In this document: piece after piece, positions 4,879 to 40,310 of the stretch | How the letters are laid out: every line of letters starts with the position of its first letter | Position numbering within the stretch: position 1 is the stretch's first letter | Virus record (IMG/VR): IMGVR_UViG_3300024429_000020 | Coordinates: 1 to 41,318 of that record | Length of the DNA stretch: 41,318 nucleotides | DNA from: a virus | Reading direction: 5' to 3' (one strand) | The notes under the pieces: generated by a model | Databases searched by the model: none | What the model saw: only the letters and a program-made list of their open reading frames with translations | Told to the model about the DNA's origin: nothing | Position numbers and translations under genes: made by a program

Positions 4879-5361
4879 TCAACTTGTCGCTGGTGCAAAT
4901 AGTTTTATTCGCTTTAACTGTCGTAATGCCATCCACATATTATCTTCATGCCTGTAAATAACCCAGGGTCTGGGATGTCCCGACTGATACTTTCGACGGA
5001 GTTTCTTTTCAGTTTGAAATTTAATTGCTAGTTCTGCTTGTTCTTTTTTTAACAGTAAGTAGGGCAAAATATTCTGCAAAAACTGATTGGCTTGGTTAGC
5101 CTGTATACACCATTGATATTTTGGGTAATGTCCACATGGTGGTGGCTTGCATTTACAAGTATGTCCTCCAAATTGCTCGTGAAGCCAATGCGTCAACAAT
5201 TGGTCTGAGCTACTAACGAAAATATGAAGATCGTAAATGTGGGGCCAAAAGGAGTTATGTTTCTTACATCGGCGGATATGAACACATCCCTCACCATCTA
5301 TGATTCCGGCCGCATAAGCTAGCGTAATTTCATCCAATAAACATCTTTCCTTCAAATTCAA
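4879..5361 (-). CDS. LAGLIDADG homing endonuclease (single-motif)
   Basis: A 160-residue protein with one LAGLIDADG motif, LAYAAGIIDGEGCV at residues 14-27, in which the acidic residues D22 and E24 sit at the helix end as in the active site. Single-motif enzymes act as homodimers to cut long asymmetric sites. The gene starts 32 bp inside the 3' end of the metallophosphoesterase gene, has no promoter of its own that I can see, and is free-standing: the phosphoesterase frame is intact, so no intron or intein is implied. Confidence 0.85.
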   Translation of the reverse strand: MNLKERCLLDEITLAYAAGIIDGEGCVHIRRCKKHNSFWPHIYDLHIFVSSSDQLLTHWLHEQFGGHTCKCKPPPCGHYPKYQWCIQANQANQFLQNILPYLLLKKEQAELAIKFQTEKKLRRKYQSGHPRPWVIYRHEDNMWMALRQLKRIKLFAPATS

Positions 5362-31848: not shown

Positions 31849-32060
31849 ACATCCCCTCGGCTACTTAACTCGCCGTCACGAGCTACCTGCTCATCACCAA
31901 GCCATAGACCGGCTAGCTTGATAGTCACCTAGAGCAGAGGCGAAAATCCCTTAACCTACCCCTAACCTCCCTGACCGAGAGAGAGCAAATTCCCACTTTA
32001 TAGTTTTTTCCCCTTCCGAAGTACTTCGAGGCGGTCACATCCCACGCCTAAAATTCCAAT
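31849..32060. other. non-coding stretch upstream of the terminase
   Basis: The whole gene-free gap is 31849-32210. The part nearest the terminase has no supported gene. It contains a perfect 12-bp palindrome CGAAGTACTTCG near 32018-32029 and several short stems close to the terminase start (for example CTCG-6-CGAG, GAGC-5-GCTC). No sigma70 promoter for the late operon is visible. A packaging start site, a late-promoter region or a structured leader are all possible. Confidence 0.4.
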
Positions 32061-32085
32061 AAAAAAAGCGGCCAACTTAGCCGCT
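32061..32085 (-). terminator. rho-independent terminator, leftward
   Basis: Minus strand: stem AGCGGC (32085-32080), 7-nt loop, GCCGCT (32072-32067), followed by a run of seven T. This is the classic intrinsic terminator form. It would stop leftward transcription from the small-gene block before the terminase operon, so the late operon should have its own promoter or an antiterminator. Confidence 0.85.
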
Positions 32086-32092
32086 CGTGCAC

Positions 32093-32163
32093 TAGTCTAT
32101 TTTTCTCCCTACGAATAGACTAAAAATTTTCTTAGTCTAATGGGATAGACTTTAGCGACTAAA
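32093..32163. repeat. cluster of AGTCTA/TAGACT inverted repeats
   Basis: TAGTCTATT (32093-32101) and AATAGACTA (32114-32122) are perfect 9-bp arms 12 bp apart. AGTCTA (32134-32139) and TAGACT (32146-32151) form a second pair 6 bp apart, and TTTAG/CTAAA a third (32151-32163). They lie just upstream of the terminator in the leftward transcript. They may be operator sites or RNA stems. Confidence 0.55.
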
Positions 32164-32210
32164 TTGACCGCTCCGTTAAATCCGAGAAGGTCAAACCTGA
32201 ATGTCAAATA

Positions 32211-32456
32211 CTACTTTTTGGTCTTATAAAAAACTTCTGGTTCTCTTTTGCGTGCTCTGTTTATGAGAATAGTAATCTCGGCAAAACCATTCCGCCATCC
32301 GTCTATGACGGCAGCTCTTACTTTATCGAGACAATCTTTGAGTATCCGCTTATCAATATCCTCAGACTTACAATTACTATTATATACGGATTTTTTAATT
32401 GTCAACCCCTTAGTTTTTGCCAATTTGGTATATAAAATAATGTGGTCTAAAGCCAT
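32211..32456 (-). CDS. hypothetical protein overlapping a promoter
   Basis: An 81-residue basic protein (RILKDCLDKVRAAVIDGW, ITILINRARKREPEVFY) with no recognised domain. ATG at 32456 lies inside the upstream gene and has no ribosome site. A promoter (32379-32405) lies inside the frame, and the part after it remains open but lacks a normal start codon. So either the whole frame is translated, or the region is mainly an untranslated RNA. Confidence 0.4.
   Translation of the reverse strand: MALDHIILYTKLAKTKGLTIKKSVYNSNCKSEDIDKRILKDCLDKVRAAVIDGWRNGFAEITILINRARKREPEVFYKTKK
32379..32405 (-). promoter_or_regulatory. sigma70-type promoter, leftward
   Basis: TTGACA (32405-32400), 15 bp, TATAAT (32384-32379). 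Both hexamers are perfect, although the spacer is one or two bases short. It starts 4 nt after the stop of the gene at 32410. The transcript would start near 32372 and meet the terminator about 310 nt later. Confidence 0.65.
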
Positions 32457-32658
32457 TCAGATTTACAAGATGATTTATCAAATTCTGCTCCATCATAAAT
32501 GCCATACCAGAACCATCAATTCCTCGTTGCCTATTCTGTTCAACTAATCCCACAAAGACCTGCTGACATTGTACCTGGCCTATGGGAGCAGTATCGGAAA
32601 AAAGCTCAGGAACCCAGCGATAAGGCCAATAGCGACCAGTGGCTTCAAGAAGATTCAT
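32410..32658 (-). CDS. hypothetical protein
   Basis: An 82-residue protein (MNLLEATGRYWPYRWVPEL at the start, NLINHLVNLNGFRPHYF near the end). I choose the ATG at 32658, 9 nt after AAGGA; an in-frame GTG at 32694 would overlap the upstream gene by 50 bp instead of 14. No domain recognised. Confidence 0.5.
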   Translation of the reverse strand: MNLLEATGRYWPYRWVPELFSDTAPIGQVQCQQVFVGLVEQNRQRGIDGSGMAFMMEQNLINHLVNLNGFRPHYFIYQIGKN

Positions 32659-32980
32659 TGATTTCATTCCTTGCTTTACCATTGGAAAATGCACGGTAGT
32701 AACCTATCCGTCCATCTGCAAATTGAAGAATAGACCTCCAATCTTGAACCCAAAATAGAGCGTAAATCACATCATGGACAACATGAAATAACCAGGGCAC
32801 GCTACATTCATCCATGATGACATGAATAAATTCGTGTACCAAGGTAAGTGGTTTACTTAGCCATGCACCCATGGAAAGATTCACTACAATATGCCATTCA
32901 CCGTCTATTACTTCAGCTACGCCACTATAACGCAATCCAGTCTCCTCTTCGACAATATCCTTCGCCCATATTAGTTTCAT
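32645..32980 (-). CDS. HExxH zinc metallopeptidase-like protein
   Basis: A 111-residue protein with the zinc-binding motif HEFIH at 49-53 in the helix LTLVHEFIHVIMDE, preceded by two strands (VAEVIDGEWHIVVNLS) as in small metallopeptidases of the ImmA/SprT-like kind. The third metal ligand is not obvious. In phages such proteins may cleave repressors or host regulators. Coupled to the upstream gene by ATGA. Confidence 0.6.
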   Translation of the reverse strand: MKLIWAKDIVEEETGLRYSGVAEVIDGEWHIVVNLSMGAWLSKPLTLVHEFIHVIMDECSVPWLFHVVHDVIYALFWVQDWRSILQFADGRIGYYRAFSNGKARNEINESS

Positions 32981-33153
32981 TTCTTCAAATGCTCCTTCCT
33001 GTGCATTTTATCATAAAACTCTAACTTCTTTACTCTTTTGGGGAGTTTGTCGAGAAGGATGAGGTGGTCAATGATTTCGTTGATTTTAAGAACAATATCA
33101 AGCTCCACCAAGGTTCCAGCTCCGGTTCTTATGCTCTTATCAAGTTTTTCCAT
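32977..33153 (-). CDS. small helical protein
   Basis: A 58-residue protein starting MEKLDKSIRTGAGTL with a leucine-rich amphipathic centre (IVLKINEIIDHLILLDKL) and a basic end. GGAAG lies 10 nt before the ATG at 33153, its stop overlaps the next ATG (ATGA), and it follows its neighbour by 3 nt. Possible helical dimer; function unknown. Confidence 0.55.
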   Translation of the reverse strand: MEKLDKSIRTGAGTLVELDIVLKINEIIDHLILLDKLPKRVKKLEFYDKMHRKEHLKK

Positions 33154-33156
33154 GAG

Positions 33157-33354
33157 TTACTCACTTCCTGGGAAATAGCCCACAGGAAGACTTGCTTTGA
33201 GGTGAGGATTTTCAAGCTCATCATAAGTCCTCGGACCCCCAGACCAGTCTAGCCATATATGATTACAAGCTCTTTCCAAGCATTCAAATCGCTTGCCATT
33301 CCATTGAATAAATATACTCTTACATTTAGGACACTTTTCATCTGTTTTGCTCAT
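33157..33354 (-). CDS. zinc-ribbon protein
   Basis: A 65-residue protein with CPKC near residue 8 and C-x4-C-x-H (CLERACNH) near residues 25-32: a zinc-ribbon pattern. AAGGAG lies 9 nt before the ATG at 33354. Likely a small nucleic-acid or protein-binding module, function unknown. Confidence 0.65.
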   Translation of the reverse strand: MSKTDEKCPKCKSIFIQWNGKRFECLERACNHIWLDWSGGPRTYDELENPHLKASLPVGYFPGSE

Positions 33355-33369
33355 ATCATCAGCTCCTTT

Positions 33370-33567
33370 CTAATTTAAGACAAACCCCCACTTCCAGATG
33401 GGATAGACTGCTAAAGAAAGATAAGAGACATATTCTCCATTTCTCCAAAGACTCATAGCTCTTTCGTGATACCAGAGACGAGGGGGAAAGAGTCTGTCGT
33501 TGTAGAATAGCTTACGATTGGAGACTGTGAAAGTAGACAAGGGATATTGGAAATGAGAAGGATCTAT
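33370..33567 (-). CDS. 65-residue protein with apparent ATA start
   Basis: An open frame rich in Tyr, Trp, Phe and Arg (KLFYNDRLFPPRLWYHERAM, then SLAVYPIWKWGF). AAGGAG (33579-33574) sits 6 nt before an ATA codon at 33567, with an in-frame TAA just before it, so the only start in good register is ATA. An internal ATG gives 28 residues. Composition looks coding and its stop fits the gap before the next gene. ATA starts are rare, so either this is a special low-efficiency start or the short form is used. Confidence 0.45.
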   Translation of the reverse strand: MDPSHFQYPLSTFTVSNRKLFYNDRLFPPRLWYHERAMSLWRNGEYVSYLSLAVYPIWKWGFVLN

Positions 33568-33588
33568 GGGTTACTCCTTGTCGAAACT

Positions 33589-33644
33589 TGGAGGTGGGGG
33601 GAGTCGAACCCCCGTCTGGGACAGCCCATCGAACCATCACCCCC
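33589..33644 (-). ncRNA. miniature tmRNA-like (tRNA-like domain) RNA element
   Basis: Minus strand, 55 nt plus a discriminator A. GGGGGTG (33644-33638) pairs with CACCTCC (33596-33590) as a 7-bp acceptor stem with a single G.U wobble at position 3-70, the alanine identity pair. GGGGG-TTCGACT-CCCCC is a perfect T arm. Between them are GGTTCGATGGG, like the tmRNA 5' D-loop region, and a short stem TGGG-CTGT-CCCA where tmRNA has its helix P2. The mRNA-like domain and pseudoknots of tmRNA are absent; CCA is not encoded. It cannot be drawn as a normal tRNA because there is no room for an anticodon arm. It sits 9 nt before the ribosome site of the ATA-start gene. Confidence 0.6.
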
Positions 33645-33661
33645 ACTTCATGCGCCCCCAG

Positions 33662-33805
33662 TTATAATGCTTTAATTTCGGTATTGATACAATTACCTAT
33701 TTTTTCTGCCCAAGTCTCAGCTTCTTCATTTGGTAGTCCAGCAACAATACTCCTAAGCTCAATAAGTTCTTTGATATACACTACATGTTCAATAGCATCT
33801 GTCAT
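33662..33805 (-). CDS. 47-residue helical protein
   Basis: ATG at 33805 with AAGGAGG 6 nt upstream, one of the best ribosome sites here. The protein (MTDAIEHVVYIKELIELRS and a Glu-rich second helix) is an acidic two-helix peptide. Ends 17 nt before the tRNA-like element. No family recognised. Confidence 0.6.
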   Translation of the reverse strand: MTDAIEHVVYIKELIELRSIVAGLPNEEAETWAEKIGNCINTEIKAL

Positions 33806-33840
33806 TGAAACCTCCTTGAGTTTCAGAAAATTACTAGGTC

Positions 33841-34293
33841 TTAACCTTCGTTGTCAGCTAGAATGTCCTCTATACATATATCGGTATCCCATTGTGCAAT
33901 GTAAAACTTCGTAGTGCAACCATTCACAACTCCAAACAGAATCGGGTCTTCGACTTTAGCGATGTAGCCAATTTCAAACTCATCGAAACAGTTCAATTCC
34001 TTAGCTTTCTCAAGTTCCGTCAGTACGTCTACCGGCGGAACTTTGCTAGTTGTGCAAATTGATTCAAAGGTGAGTACATCATAGCTACCATCCTTGGAAT
34101 GCGTTTTCTTAAAGAGTTTCTGATTGAAAGCAGCAATTTTCTCTTGCCTCACATACCTAAAATGCTCATAGGCAATTGCCAACTTCCTCTGTAAGTTCTT
34201 TACTTCCTCATCCTTCTCAACTACCCTTTTGAAGCCTAACTTTTTTAGCCTTCCTTGTTCTTCCTCTTTTAGACCTCTTAGTGCTGTCTTCAC
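33841..34293 (-). CDS. hypothetical protein, GTG start
   Basis: A 150-residue protein: a charged helical N-terminal half (LKEEEQGRLKKLGFKRVVEK) with coiled coil, and a C-terminal half with strands (IGYIAKVEDPILFGVV, KFYIAQWDTDICIED). AGGAGG precedes the GTG at 34293, which lies inside the upstream gene (77-bp overlap). Unknown function. Confidence 0.55.
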   Translation of the reverse strand: MKTALRGLKEEEQGRLKKLGFKRVVEKDEEVKNLQRKLAIAYEHFRYVRQEKIAAFNQKLFKKTHSKDGSYDVLTFESICTTSKVPPVDVLTELEKAKELNCFDEFEIGYIAKVEDPILFGVVNGCTTKFYIAQWDTDICIEDILADNEG

Positions 34294-34519
34294 TCTTCTC
34301 CTCCTTGTTTTTTGCTACCCTCTCATAATAGAGGACATTATTTTTGTTTATCACATACTCAACACCAACTGCATCTACTATATGAACCATCTCCTTTTCC
34401 CAAATGTACGTAACATTCTGGATAAGTAGCTTCTCACCTCCCATAAAGTGAATAATCTGGTGGTGGCTAACTTCTCCTTTGGGGTGATTACATTGTCGTT
34501 GTTTGTTTATGTCAATCAT
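34217..34519 (-). CDS. hypothetical protein with basic tail
   Basis: A 100-residue protein. CNHPKGEVSHHQIIHF near residues 10-25 is Cys/His-rich and might bind metal; a beta section (KLLIQNVTYIWEKEMVHIV) follows; the last 30 residues are Lys/Arg-rich. Coupled to the upstream gene by ATGA. Unknown function. Confidence 0.55.
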   Translation of the reverse strand: MIDINKQRQCNHPKGEVSHHQIIHFMGGEKLLIQNVTYIWEKEMVHIVDAVGVEYVINKNNVLYYERVAKNKEEKSEDSTKRSKRGRTRKAKKVRLQKGS

Positions 34520-34743
34520 GGTGATGTAGTTCCATTAATCATATCATCTTCAATAACCCAGGGACTAAGAGTAGATGCAACTACGCTTGTAGCGGTAAGG
34601 GGTGCAGTAGAAGCAAACATCCAGTCGCCCATACCCGAAGTGGTAAATGTTCGTCCAGTAAGAAACTTCTTCAAATCTTCATCTATCCTTTCACCTTGCT
34701 CAAGTTCGTGAAGTAGGTCTGAGGGTTTTAATTTTTTCTTCAT
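34516..34743 (-). CDS. hypothetical protein
   Basis: A 75-residue protein with a charged helical N-terminus (KPSDLLHELEQGERIDEDLK) and a Thr/Ser/Ala-rich second half. ATGA overlaps at both ends show coupled translation in this operon. No domain recognised. Confidence 0.55.
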   Translation of the reverse strand: MKKKLKPSDLLHELEQGERIDEDLKKFLTGRTFTTSGMGDWMFASTAPLTATSVVASTLSPWVIEDDMINGTTSP

Positions 34744-34955
34744 AATTTTTTACAATGGTCTGCTATGAGTTCTCCGAGAAAGGTAACGCTAATTCCCCAT
34801 TTCTCGGCGAGCCACTTAAAAGTCTCTCCATTTTTATGAATCTCATAGCAGAGAATCTCTCCGAAGCTACCACCGCAACCAGTAGGATGATGAGTATATA
34901 GTTCTTCTATGGTGTTACGAAAAGACTCAATCCGAGCTTTCAAATCTTTGTTCAT
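34740..34955 (-). CDS. small helix-turn-helix protein
   Basis: A 71-residue protein whose second half FKWLAEKWGISVTFLGELI has the spacing of a helix-turn-helix (helix WLAEKWG, turn, recognition helix VTFLGELIADH). The first half is a helix (LKARIESFRNTIEELY). The ribosome site before the ATG is poor. Probably a small regulator or a relative of the terminase-type HTH. Confidence 0.55.
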   Translation of the reverse strand: MNKDLKARIESFRNTIEELYTHHPTGCGGSFGEILCYEIHKNGETFKWLAEKWGISVTFLGELIADHCKKL

Positions 34956-34981
34956 AGTATGTGTGTAGTACCTTATTTATT

Positions 34982-35158
34982 TCACTTTTCACTTGGGGTT
35001 GGCTCCCCCCTCTTCTTCTCCCTCGCAATGATCCAGTCCACCACAGCAGATAGCCTATCCTCAATCCTACACAATCTTGTCTCACTTAACTCAGCCTCGT
35101 CAAACTCTACCTGTTCCTGACGTTCTTTACTGCCATACCAGGGTTCCAGCTTCTTCAT
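34982..35158 (-). CDS. 58-residue protein, tandem paralogue
   Basis: ATG at 35158, 10 nt after AAGGAG; a longer frame to 35206 is not used because the upstream gene ends there. The core RLSAVVDWIIAREKK parallels ILNAVVDWLDEHDKE of the next gene upstream, and both proteins are 58 residues, so they look like tandem duplicates. Helical; function unknown. Confidence 0.6.
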   Translation of the reverse strand: MKKLEPWYGSKERQEQVEFDEAELSETRLCRIEDRLSAVVDWIIAREKKRGEPTPSEK

Positions 35159-35162
35159 AGTC

Positions 35163-35339
35163 TTATCTCTCCTTTGATTTACTCTGTTCTTTATCATGCT
35201 CATCAAGCCAGTCCACTACAGCATTTAGTATCGTACTCATTTGTAGCAGGAAATTAGCTAACTCTGGTTCGTCCTTCAGTATCCGTATCTTCCTTGCATC
35301 AAGATAGTACTCATCACTTACTTTGGCGATATTTGCCAT
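35163..35339 (-). CDS. 58-residue protein, tandem paralogue
   Basis: Starts at ATG 35339 with AAGGAG 7 nt upstream. MANIAKVSDEYYLDARKI at the start, then ILNAVVDWLDEHDKE shared in pattern with its downstream neighbour. Likely a small helical protein; the pair may form a heterodimer. Function unknown. Confidence 0.6.
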   Translation of the reverse strand: MANIAKVSDEYYLDARKIRILKDEPELANFLLQMSTILNAVVDWLDEHDKEQSKSKER

Positions 35340-35353
35340 TTATTCTCTCCTTT

Positions 35354-35379
35354 CATTATGTTCCGATAATGGACATTAT
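35354..35379. repeat. alternating CATTAT/ATAATG repeats
   Basis: CATTAT (35354-35359), ATAATG (35366-35371) and CATTAT (35374-35379) form two overlapping inverted repeats just upstream of the gene at 35339, within the gap 35340-35400. They could be an operator or leader hairpin. No promoter hexamers are clear. Confidence 0.4.
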
Positions 35380-35400
35380 GTAAGCCAAACTGAAATCGCT

Positions 35401-35556
35401 CTAACCCTCATGAACATTGACACTTCGATACCAAACTACGGTCAGACAACCACATACAGGACAAGTCGGACTAATAACTTTCGTTTGGGTCGAACCACTA
35501 ATGTTTATTGTAGTCTTACAGTTACCACAAACTCCAACTGCTATCAAAACCATCAT
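35401..35556 (-). CDS. 51-residue zinc-ribbon protein
   Basis: C10-x2-C13 (VCGNC) and CPVCGC near 32-37 give a four-cysteine zinc ribbon. GGAGG precedes ATG 35556, and the ATG overlaps the preceding stop (ATGA). The fold resembles small transcription or Com-like zinc knuckles of phages; specific function unknown. Confidence 0.65.
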   Translation of the reverse strand: MMVLIAVGVCGNCKTTINISGSTQTKVISPTCPVCGCLTVVWYRSVNVHEG

Positions 35557-36026
35557 TGTTCCCCTCCTTTCTCATATTCCCTCTTCATAATGTCCATCTC
35601 ATACCCACATTTAGGACACTTACTCAGTGGGATGGTGACATTAACGACCATCTCTCGCTTTTCAATCACAGTTTTGAGGATACCAGCAGCTTTAAGCAAT
35701 AACTCGATATGTTTGAGCATAACAGAGTAATCCTTTGCAGATATAGTGTCACTCTTGGCTAATAGCTCCAATTTCTTCTTGGTAAGCTCACATAATTGGG
35801 GGAGATCAGCAATTAAGGGTTCCAGTTTGACCAACTGCCTGTCAGTGAAATTACCTTCTGACACTATCTCACCGGCGTGGTGCTTCGCCATACTCTCACT
35901 ATATCCAGCCTCCAGGATACTCTTCACCTTACTCCCAAAGGTGCTACTCTTCGGATCAATATATTTAGCAACAGCTATCTTCTTCTTCAAACTAACTCTC
36001 TTCTTCTTAGCTTTCTCTTTCTTCAT
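35553..36026 (-). CDS. probable terminase small subunit with zinc knuckle
   Basis: A 157-residue protein. After a Lys-rich start, AVAKYIDPKSSTFGSKVKSI then LEAGYSESMAKHHAGEI (about residues 18-55) matches the N-terminal HTH of small terminases and related phage proteins (Y-x-D-P-x-S-x-T-F-x-x-K-x-x-S-x-x-x-A-G-Y-S). Helices follow, and the C-terminus has CPKCGYEMD, a zinc knuckle that ordinary small terminases lack. It lies about 3.7 kb upstream of the large subunit. I take ATG 36026; a TTG at 36047 is possible. Confidence 0.6.
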   Translation of the reverse strand: MKKEKAKKKRVSLKKKIAVAKYIDPKSSTFGSKVKSILEAGYSESMAKHHAGEIVSEGNFTDRQLVKLEPLIADLPQLCELTKKKLELLAKSDTISAKDYSVMLKHIELLLKAAGILKTVIEKREMVVNVTIPLSKCPKCGYEMDIMKREYEKGGEQ

Positions 36027-36097
36027 TATCCTTTCTTCTCTCCCCAAGATTAAGACTCTTATCTCCCCCTATAGTCCCCCTCTTTTCTCGGGGCAAC

Positions 36098-39911: not shown

Positions 39912-40310
39912 CTACTCCACTTCCGTATGTCCAAGAAAAAATTTATGTCTTCTATTCCATACCTTGTCTATCTTTTCCTTCCACCATTGATGAGCAAACT
40001 CAGTATCTATGAGCTTACCTGCTTTCATTACCGATAAGAGGATTCCACTTTCTTGATGTCTCACCCAAGTATCTGCTCCCTTAGCTTCGCTTTTCTTACT
40101 ATAATTCCGTTTTACTCTTGCCTCAAAGAGCTTCCTCGTCAGCCTTCTCCTGAAAACCTGTGTAGGATTTTTCTTTTGATAAGGAATTTGAAATTGTTTT
40201 ATCAGCTCATACACTTTAGATTTACTCAAACCCAAACGATCTCCCACCTCTCCAATAGTTAGTCTCTTACCTAGCCTCTCAATTTCAGTGCAAACATCCT
40301 TTGTTACCAT
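39912..40310 (-). CDS. helix-turn-helix DNA-binding protein
   Basis: A 132-residue basic protein. RLTIGEVGDRLGLSKSKVYE (about residues 16-35) is a clear helix-turn-helix. The rest is basic and rich in Arg/Lys/Trp (VFRRRLTRKLFEARVKRN). GAGG lies before the ATG, and the gene follows the small membrane gene by 3 nt. Possibly a transcription regulator or origin-binding partner of the replisome protein. Confidence 0.65.
   Translation of the reverse strand: MVTKDVCTEIERLGKRLTIGEVGDRLGLSKSKVYELIKQFQIPYQKKNPTQVFRRRLTRKLFEARVKRNYSKKSEAKGADTWVRHQESGILLSVMKAGKLIDTEFAHQWWKEKIDKVWNRRHKFFLGHTEVE

Follow-up and report, generated by a model that had tools for sequence, protein, structure and literature searches.

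How much of a tmRNA can be removed before nothing useful is left, and what would a phage do with the remainder? These questions are raised by a 56-nt element on the minus strand of IMG/VR record IMGVR_UViG_3300024429_000020, a tailed-phage contig that was analyzed over its whole length of 41,318 nucleotides and is called the window here. The minus strand also holds nearly all of the larger genes of the window. The original prediction described a miniature tmRNA-like domain, with a 7-bp acceptor stem that includes the alanine identity pair G3·U70, a T arm with the loop TTCGACT, a tmRNA-type 5' motif on the D-side, and a tetraloop-capped P2-like stem, all within 55 nt and without an mRNA part. 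All of these components are present in the minus-strand sequence.

Read from 33644 to 33589 on the minus strand, the element opens with the 5' acceptor strand GGGGGTG (33638 to 33644; G3 at 33642). At the other end, this strand is matched by the 3' acceptor strand CACCTCC (33590 to 33596; U70 at 33592), giving 7/7 pairs including G3·U70. The D-side (33628 to 33637) consists of the spacer ATGG and the motif TTCGAT, so it reads GG-TTCGAT where the tmRNA motif is GG-N-TTCGAC, one base changed and shorter. It is followed by a P2-like stem of 3 bp, GGG/CCC, capped by the tetraloop CTGT (33618 to 33627), at the site of the mRNA-like domain of a full tmRNA; four nucleotides stand in place of that domain. 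An AGAC linker (33614 to 33617; class norm, GGAN) leads into the T arm, GGGGG-TTCGACT-CCCCC (33597 to 33613). The discriminator A73 is at 33589, and the next bases are AGT, so CCA is not encoded. Both halves of the tRNA-like domain (TLD) are in standard order, 20 nt separate TTCGA from the T stem, and the P2 loop is 4 nt long; a tag cannot fit. Compared with the other viral elements described below, which span 61 to 80 nt, the window copy is the most compact (55 nt plus A73), and it departs from their norm in its TTCGAT (TTCGAC in the other elements) and in its D-side spacer of 4 nt (5 to 9 nt in the others). The analysis confirms that positions 33644 to 33589 of the minus strand are a complete tmRNA TLD minus the mRNA part.

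Covariance models bear out the assignment as a miniature tmRNA. With all families run on the whole window, the tmRNA model RF00023 scores the element at 47.9 bits (gathering cutoff, 47; E = 4.8e-16), aligning it from model position 1 to 374 and skipping 318 positions of the mRNA-like domain. Those missing positions rule out a full standard tmRNA, as does ARAGORN, which looks for tRNAs or a tag and reported no tRNA and no tmRNA in the window. A tRNA is likewise ruled out, as 20 nt leave no room for D and anticodon arms. The mascRNA-menRNA model (RF01684) was rejected at 25.1 bits against a gathering cutoff of 42.5. We also built a covariance model, R1, from 21 other elements, all from other viruses and with the window element excluded; because MAFFT misaligned the 5' half when given all 69 elements, only elements with D-sides of the same length went into R1. 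R1 scores the window element at 47.0 bits (E = 6e-8 over 626 kb) and the plus strand of the locus at 6 bits. On the R1 scale, intact elements reach 47 to 85 bits, with the window copy the lowest among them, and tRNAs and partial tmRNA ends reach about 34 or less; two uncertain or damaged copies lie in between, a second copy in viral stretch L100 (43.2 bits) and the copy in a contig nearly identical to the window (39.4 bits). The folding energy of the element is ordinary for its G+C-rich composition (z of −0.46 against shuffles) and does not separate it from shuffles, so we relied on covariance and covariation instead. Neither a promoter nor a terminator was conspicuous at the element.

The surroundings of the element point to an accessory gene. 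It lies between two small minus-strand open reading frames (ORFs) that have no family match, one of 47 amino acids that ends 17 nt upstream (33662 to 33805) and one of 56 amino acids downstream (33370 to 33540). BLASTN of the locus against annotated and cultured phages gave no relative, and a search for relatives with structural proteins found nothing. A terminase search returned only the near-identical contig, IMGVR_UViG_3300009528_000041, and a portal search returned two diverged relatives with portals 60% and 67% identical. The mini-tmRNA is absent from both diverged relatives, and one of them has other small ORFs upstream of the large-terminase gene instead. Many small ORFs of unknown function lie in the interval at 31849 to 35552, which runs from the ORF at 35553 to 36047 up to the large terminase and is not the same in the relative; the ORF at 35553 to 36047 is itself homologous to an ORF at the same place in L235. 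This interval is a variable accessory region and, as both diverged relatives lack the element, the mini-tmRNA is an accessory gene within it. The near-identical contig is 99.99% identical to the window, and the single difference in 12,984 bp is an indel inside the mini-tmRNA, one base missing from the plus-strand G6 run at 33596 to 33601, which upsets the acceptor. No other G6 occurs where the two contigs overlap, so assembly error, slippage, and true variation are all possible.

Is the element a peculiarity of one phage? A first pattern, consisting of two TLD half-motifs with a short gap and the acceptor unspecified, found ten viral stretches; besides the near-identical contig, most of the others have a complete mini-tmRNA of their own, different in sequence. 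A tighter pattern, with the acceptor still open, was run on the IMG/VR viral stretches and found 98 of them with 68 distinct sequences. The acceptor closes in all 98 (7/7 pairs in 94), and in every one G3·U70 is kept while the adjoining pairs covary. The four that scored 6/7 are taken to be L210 to L213, whose bulged T stem was misread by fixed offsets; read correctly, these have seven acceptor pairs and G3·U70. One contig of this group, L211, carries two different mini-tmRNAs on its minus strand (1565 to 1638 and 5111 to 5183), one of them with the bulged T stem common to L210, L212, and L213. The same pattern found 31 stretches in 84,980 species genomes, 12 of which are mini-tmRNAs, so the form is mainly viral; the other 19 form no mini-tmRNA, and several resemble the 3' ends of ordinary tmRNAs. 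In many viral carriers the mini-tmRNA lies beside tRNA genes. SmpB was found in none of 22 carrier virus records, some of which are fragments, and the mini-tmRNA would thus use the SmpB of the host. TLD-only tmRNA is not a one-off but occurs in dozens of unrelated viruses. What had been a single oddity, in phage DS6A, becomes a broad phage RNA class, with at least 68 distinct IMG/VR sequences from one narrow pattern, and the existence of such a class implies that host trans-translation has been a target of phages, or a resource for them, time and again.

The original prediction had looked to related phages for conserved pairing. That expectation failed in the two diverged relatives, neither of which has the element, and it is unrelated viruses that provide the evidence for selection. 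Closure of the acceptor in the 98 stretches is the cleaner evidence, because the acceptor was not selected for there. Among 61 distinct viral-type elements, acceptor pairs 4 to 7, T-stem pairs 49 and 50, and P2 switch pair types freely. Pair 3-70, in contrast, is always G·U (61/61); at pairs 4 to 7, G·U occurs at most once per position. In an alignment that was fitted to the structure and counts related sequences, covariation is 0.657; shuffles give 0.166, and sliding the partners gives no more than 0.117. Both sides change in 12 of 18 pairs. A73, the TTCGA motif, and G3·U70 are kept across the class.

Mini-tmRNAs are also found in a cultured phage and in bacterial chromosomes. Streptomyces phage pSt2308 has one, unannotated, in a tRNA cluster (PV588686.1, 33356 to 33433; 1501 to 1578 of our stretch L224), which scores 63.5 bits with R1 and 61.0 bits with the Rfam model. 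The isolate genome of Terracoccus sp. 273MFTsu3.1 has one mini-tmRNA besides a full tmRNA. In Poribacteria, 11 of the 85 genomes searched have a match, and in 10 of these the score is at least 60 bits. Nine Poribacteria metagenome-assembled genomes were examined (L136, L137, L142, L143, L147, L150, L151, L159, and L160); G3·U70 is present, and a full-length tmRNA and SmpB were also found in seven of the nine. In eight, the mini-tmRNA is convergent to a homologous gene and near its end, an arrangement that would be expected if the mini-tmRNA gene is fixed in the chromosome; in L137, the one neighbor tested, this gene encodes a pyridoxal-dependent decarboxylase. A limited literature search found no mention of a Poribacteria mini-tmRNA. 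Short BLAST matches in nine other cultured phages turned out to belong to full or permuted tmRNAs and not to mini-tmRNAs. Permuted tmRNAs above the Rfam cutoff, unannotated there, are found in Ruegeria phage RpAliso (L191), Pseudomonas phage PA_L9 (L192), Alcaligenes phage QDWS595 (L194), Synechococcus phage S-CRM01 (L225), and Xanthomonas phage Rb1 (L229). Standard tmRNAs above the cutoff, where no tmRNA is annotated, are found in Gordonia phages GodonK, Sixama, and GMA2 and in Cellulophaga phage phi40:1 (L226, L227, L228, and L230); in GMA2, a Pistol ribozyme match also lies among the tRNAs.

What, then, is the function of the window element? It is probably an alanine-charged decoy that damps host trans-translation. 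The mini-tmRNA would be transcribed with its neighbors, host tRNA-processing enzymes would trim its 5' and 3' ends, and a host enzyme would add CCA. G3·U70 and A73 would then allow charging with alanine, and the charged RNA, which is predicted to bind SmpB, could compete with the tmRNA of the host for SmpB, for EF-Tu, and for ribosomes that have stalled on non-stop mRNA. Having neither a resume codon nor a tag, it cannot complete trans-translation, and the net effect would be a damping of host trans-translation during infection, presumably to the benefit of the phage. Several lines of evidence favor this reading: the complete TLD, the covariation across the class, the invariance of G3·U70, the carriers without SmpB, the DS6A precedent, and the tRNA-gene neighbors. 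Against it stand the two relatives without the element, the indel in the near-identical contig, and TTCGAT together with the short D-side. An alanine-accepting decoy or tmRNA competitor had been among the functions first proposed and is the best supported of them, while the proposal of a self-processed mRNA 5' end found no support.

A decoy of this kind has a precedent in the literature. A molecule similar to that of DS6A is reported to strongly inhibit tmRNA whether or not it can be charged, perhaps by titrating SmpB (PMC4131195), and inhibition by a DS6A-like molecule is also described in E. coli (PMC11915505). However, if inhibition does not need alanine charging, titration alone leaves the invariant G3·U70 and A73 unexplained, and their conservation points to a step at which the charged RNA matters. 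The invariant identity pair therefore offers a sharp test between SmpB titration and action on the ribosome.

One such action would be productive rescue without a tag, as has been suggested for mitochondrial tmRNAs: Ala-mini-tmRNA·SmpB would go into stalled ribosomes, take the nascent chain, and help release it untagged, so that ribosomes keep moving to the benefit of the phage. We regard this as rather unlikely for the window phage. The invariance of G3·U70 and A73 fits a charging function that has been kept, and Poribacteria retain the mini-tmRNA besides a full tmRNA and SmpB. However, we know of no way of releasing a ribosome without a template. Tag-less mitochondrial tmRNAs are described as persisting together with SmpB (PMC11915505), which favors rescue, and the reported inhibition of tmRNA by a similar molecule (PMC4131195) argues against it. 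It is also possible, if unlikely, that phage mini-tmRNAs are charged rescue effectors and not passive sinks for SmpB. Ala-mini-tmRNA·SmpB would then enter the stalled ribosome, take the nascent chain and, lacking a template, either trap the ribosome or add alanines over several rounds; in one Poribacteria clade such a device would regulate trans-translation permanently from the chromosome.

Could the element instead be a functionless remnant in the window phage, left by a deletion that removed the mRNA part of a tmRNA gene or produced incidentally during integration at ssrA? Its R1 score and its departures from the norm would fit decay, as would its absence from two relatives and the one-base indel. 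Yet all stems are intact, a neat tetraloop closes P2, and the same form recurs, covarying, in dozens of other viruses. The original prediction had argued against an ssrA attachment site on the grounds that both halves of the acceptor are there, and this argument held up: an attachment site needs one end only, both TLD halves are present, and the window proteins tested include no integrase family and gave only weak excisionase-like HTH matches (39912 to 40310), although the contig may be a fragment. We therefore consider a remnant quite unlikely. Finally, at the MALAT1/mascRNA locus a tRNA-like structure is a transcript processing signal, and the window element, set between same-strand small ORFs, might likewise direct RNase P and 3' enzymes to cut the phage transcript without having an RNA role of its own. 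This is highly improbable: the weak mascRNA-menRNA match is far under the cutoff, such punctuation needs neither G3·U70, A73, nor the TTCGA motif, yet the class keeps all three, and many class members lie among ordinary phage tRNAs.

How does the favored reading, an alanine-charged decoy, sit among known systems? The window element shares with the standard one-piece tmRNA (ssrA, RF00023) the acceptor with G3·U70, the T arm, the TTCGA motif, and the start of P2, but it has no mRNA-like domain, resume codon, tag, or pseudoknots. The mascRNA-menRNA family (RF01684) is also made up of small tRNA-like RNAs but is a processing product of animal lncRNAs. Closer are the tag-less tmRNAs of mitochondria and Mallomonadaceae plastids (∼65 bp), described as having retained the TLD and lost the reading frame, like the window element; they descend from the organelle's own tmRNA, and the mitochondrial genes are usually permuted (PMC11915505). 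The phage mini-tmRNA, in contrast, is an addition to a host that already has a tmRNA. Standard-form tmRNAs without a reading frame are rare, with nine reported among 97,179 sequences (PMC11915505). A mini-tmRNA without an mRNA part is not unprecedented: Mycobacterium phage DS6A has a TLD-only tmRNA (Mao et al. 2009, as cited in PMC4131195 and PMC11915505), the sequence of which is described as little more than a TLD (PMC4131195). The window element has the same TLD-only makeup, a likeness that rests on the published descriptions of DS6A, but it belongs to a different phage, and its P2 is cut to 3 bp and a tetraloop. It is thus another TLD-only tmRNA, of a kind known but hardly studied; what is new is the breadth of the form in viruses, the invariance of G3·U70, and the chromosomal copy in one Poribacteria clade.
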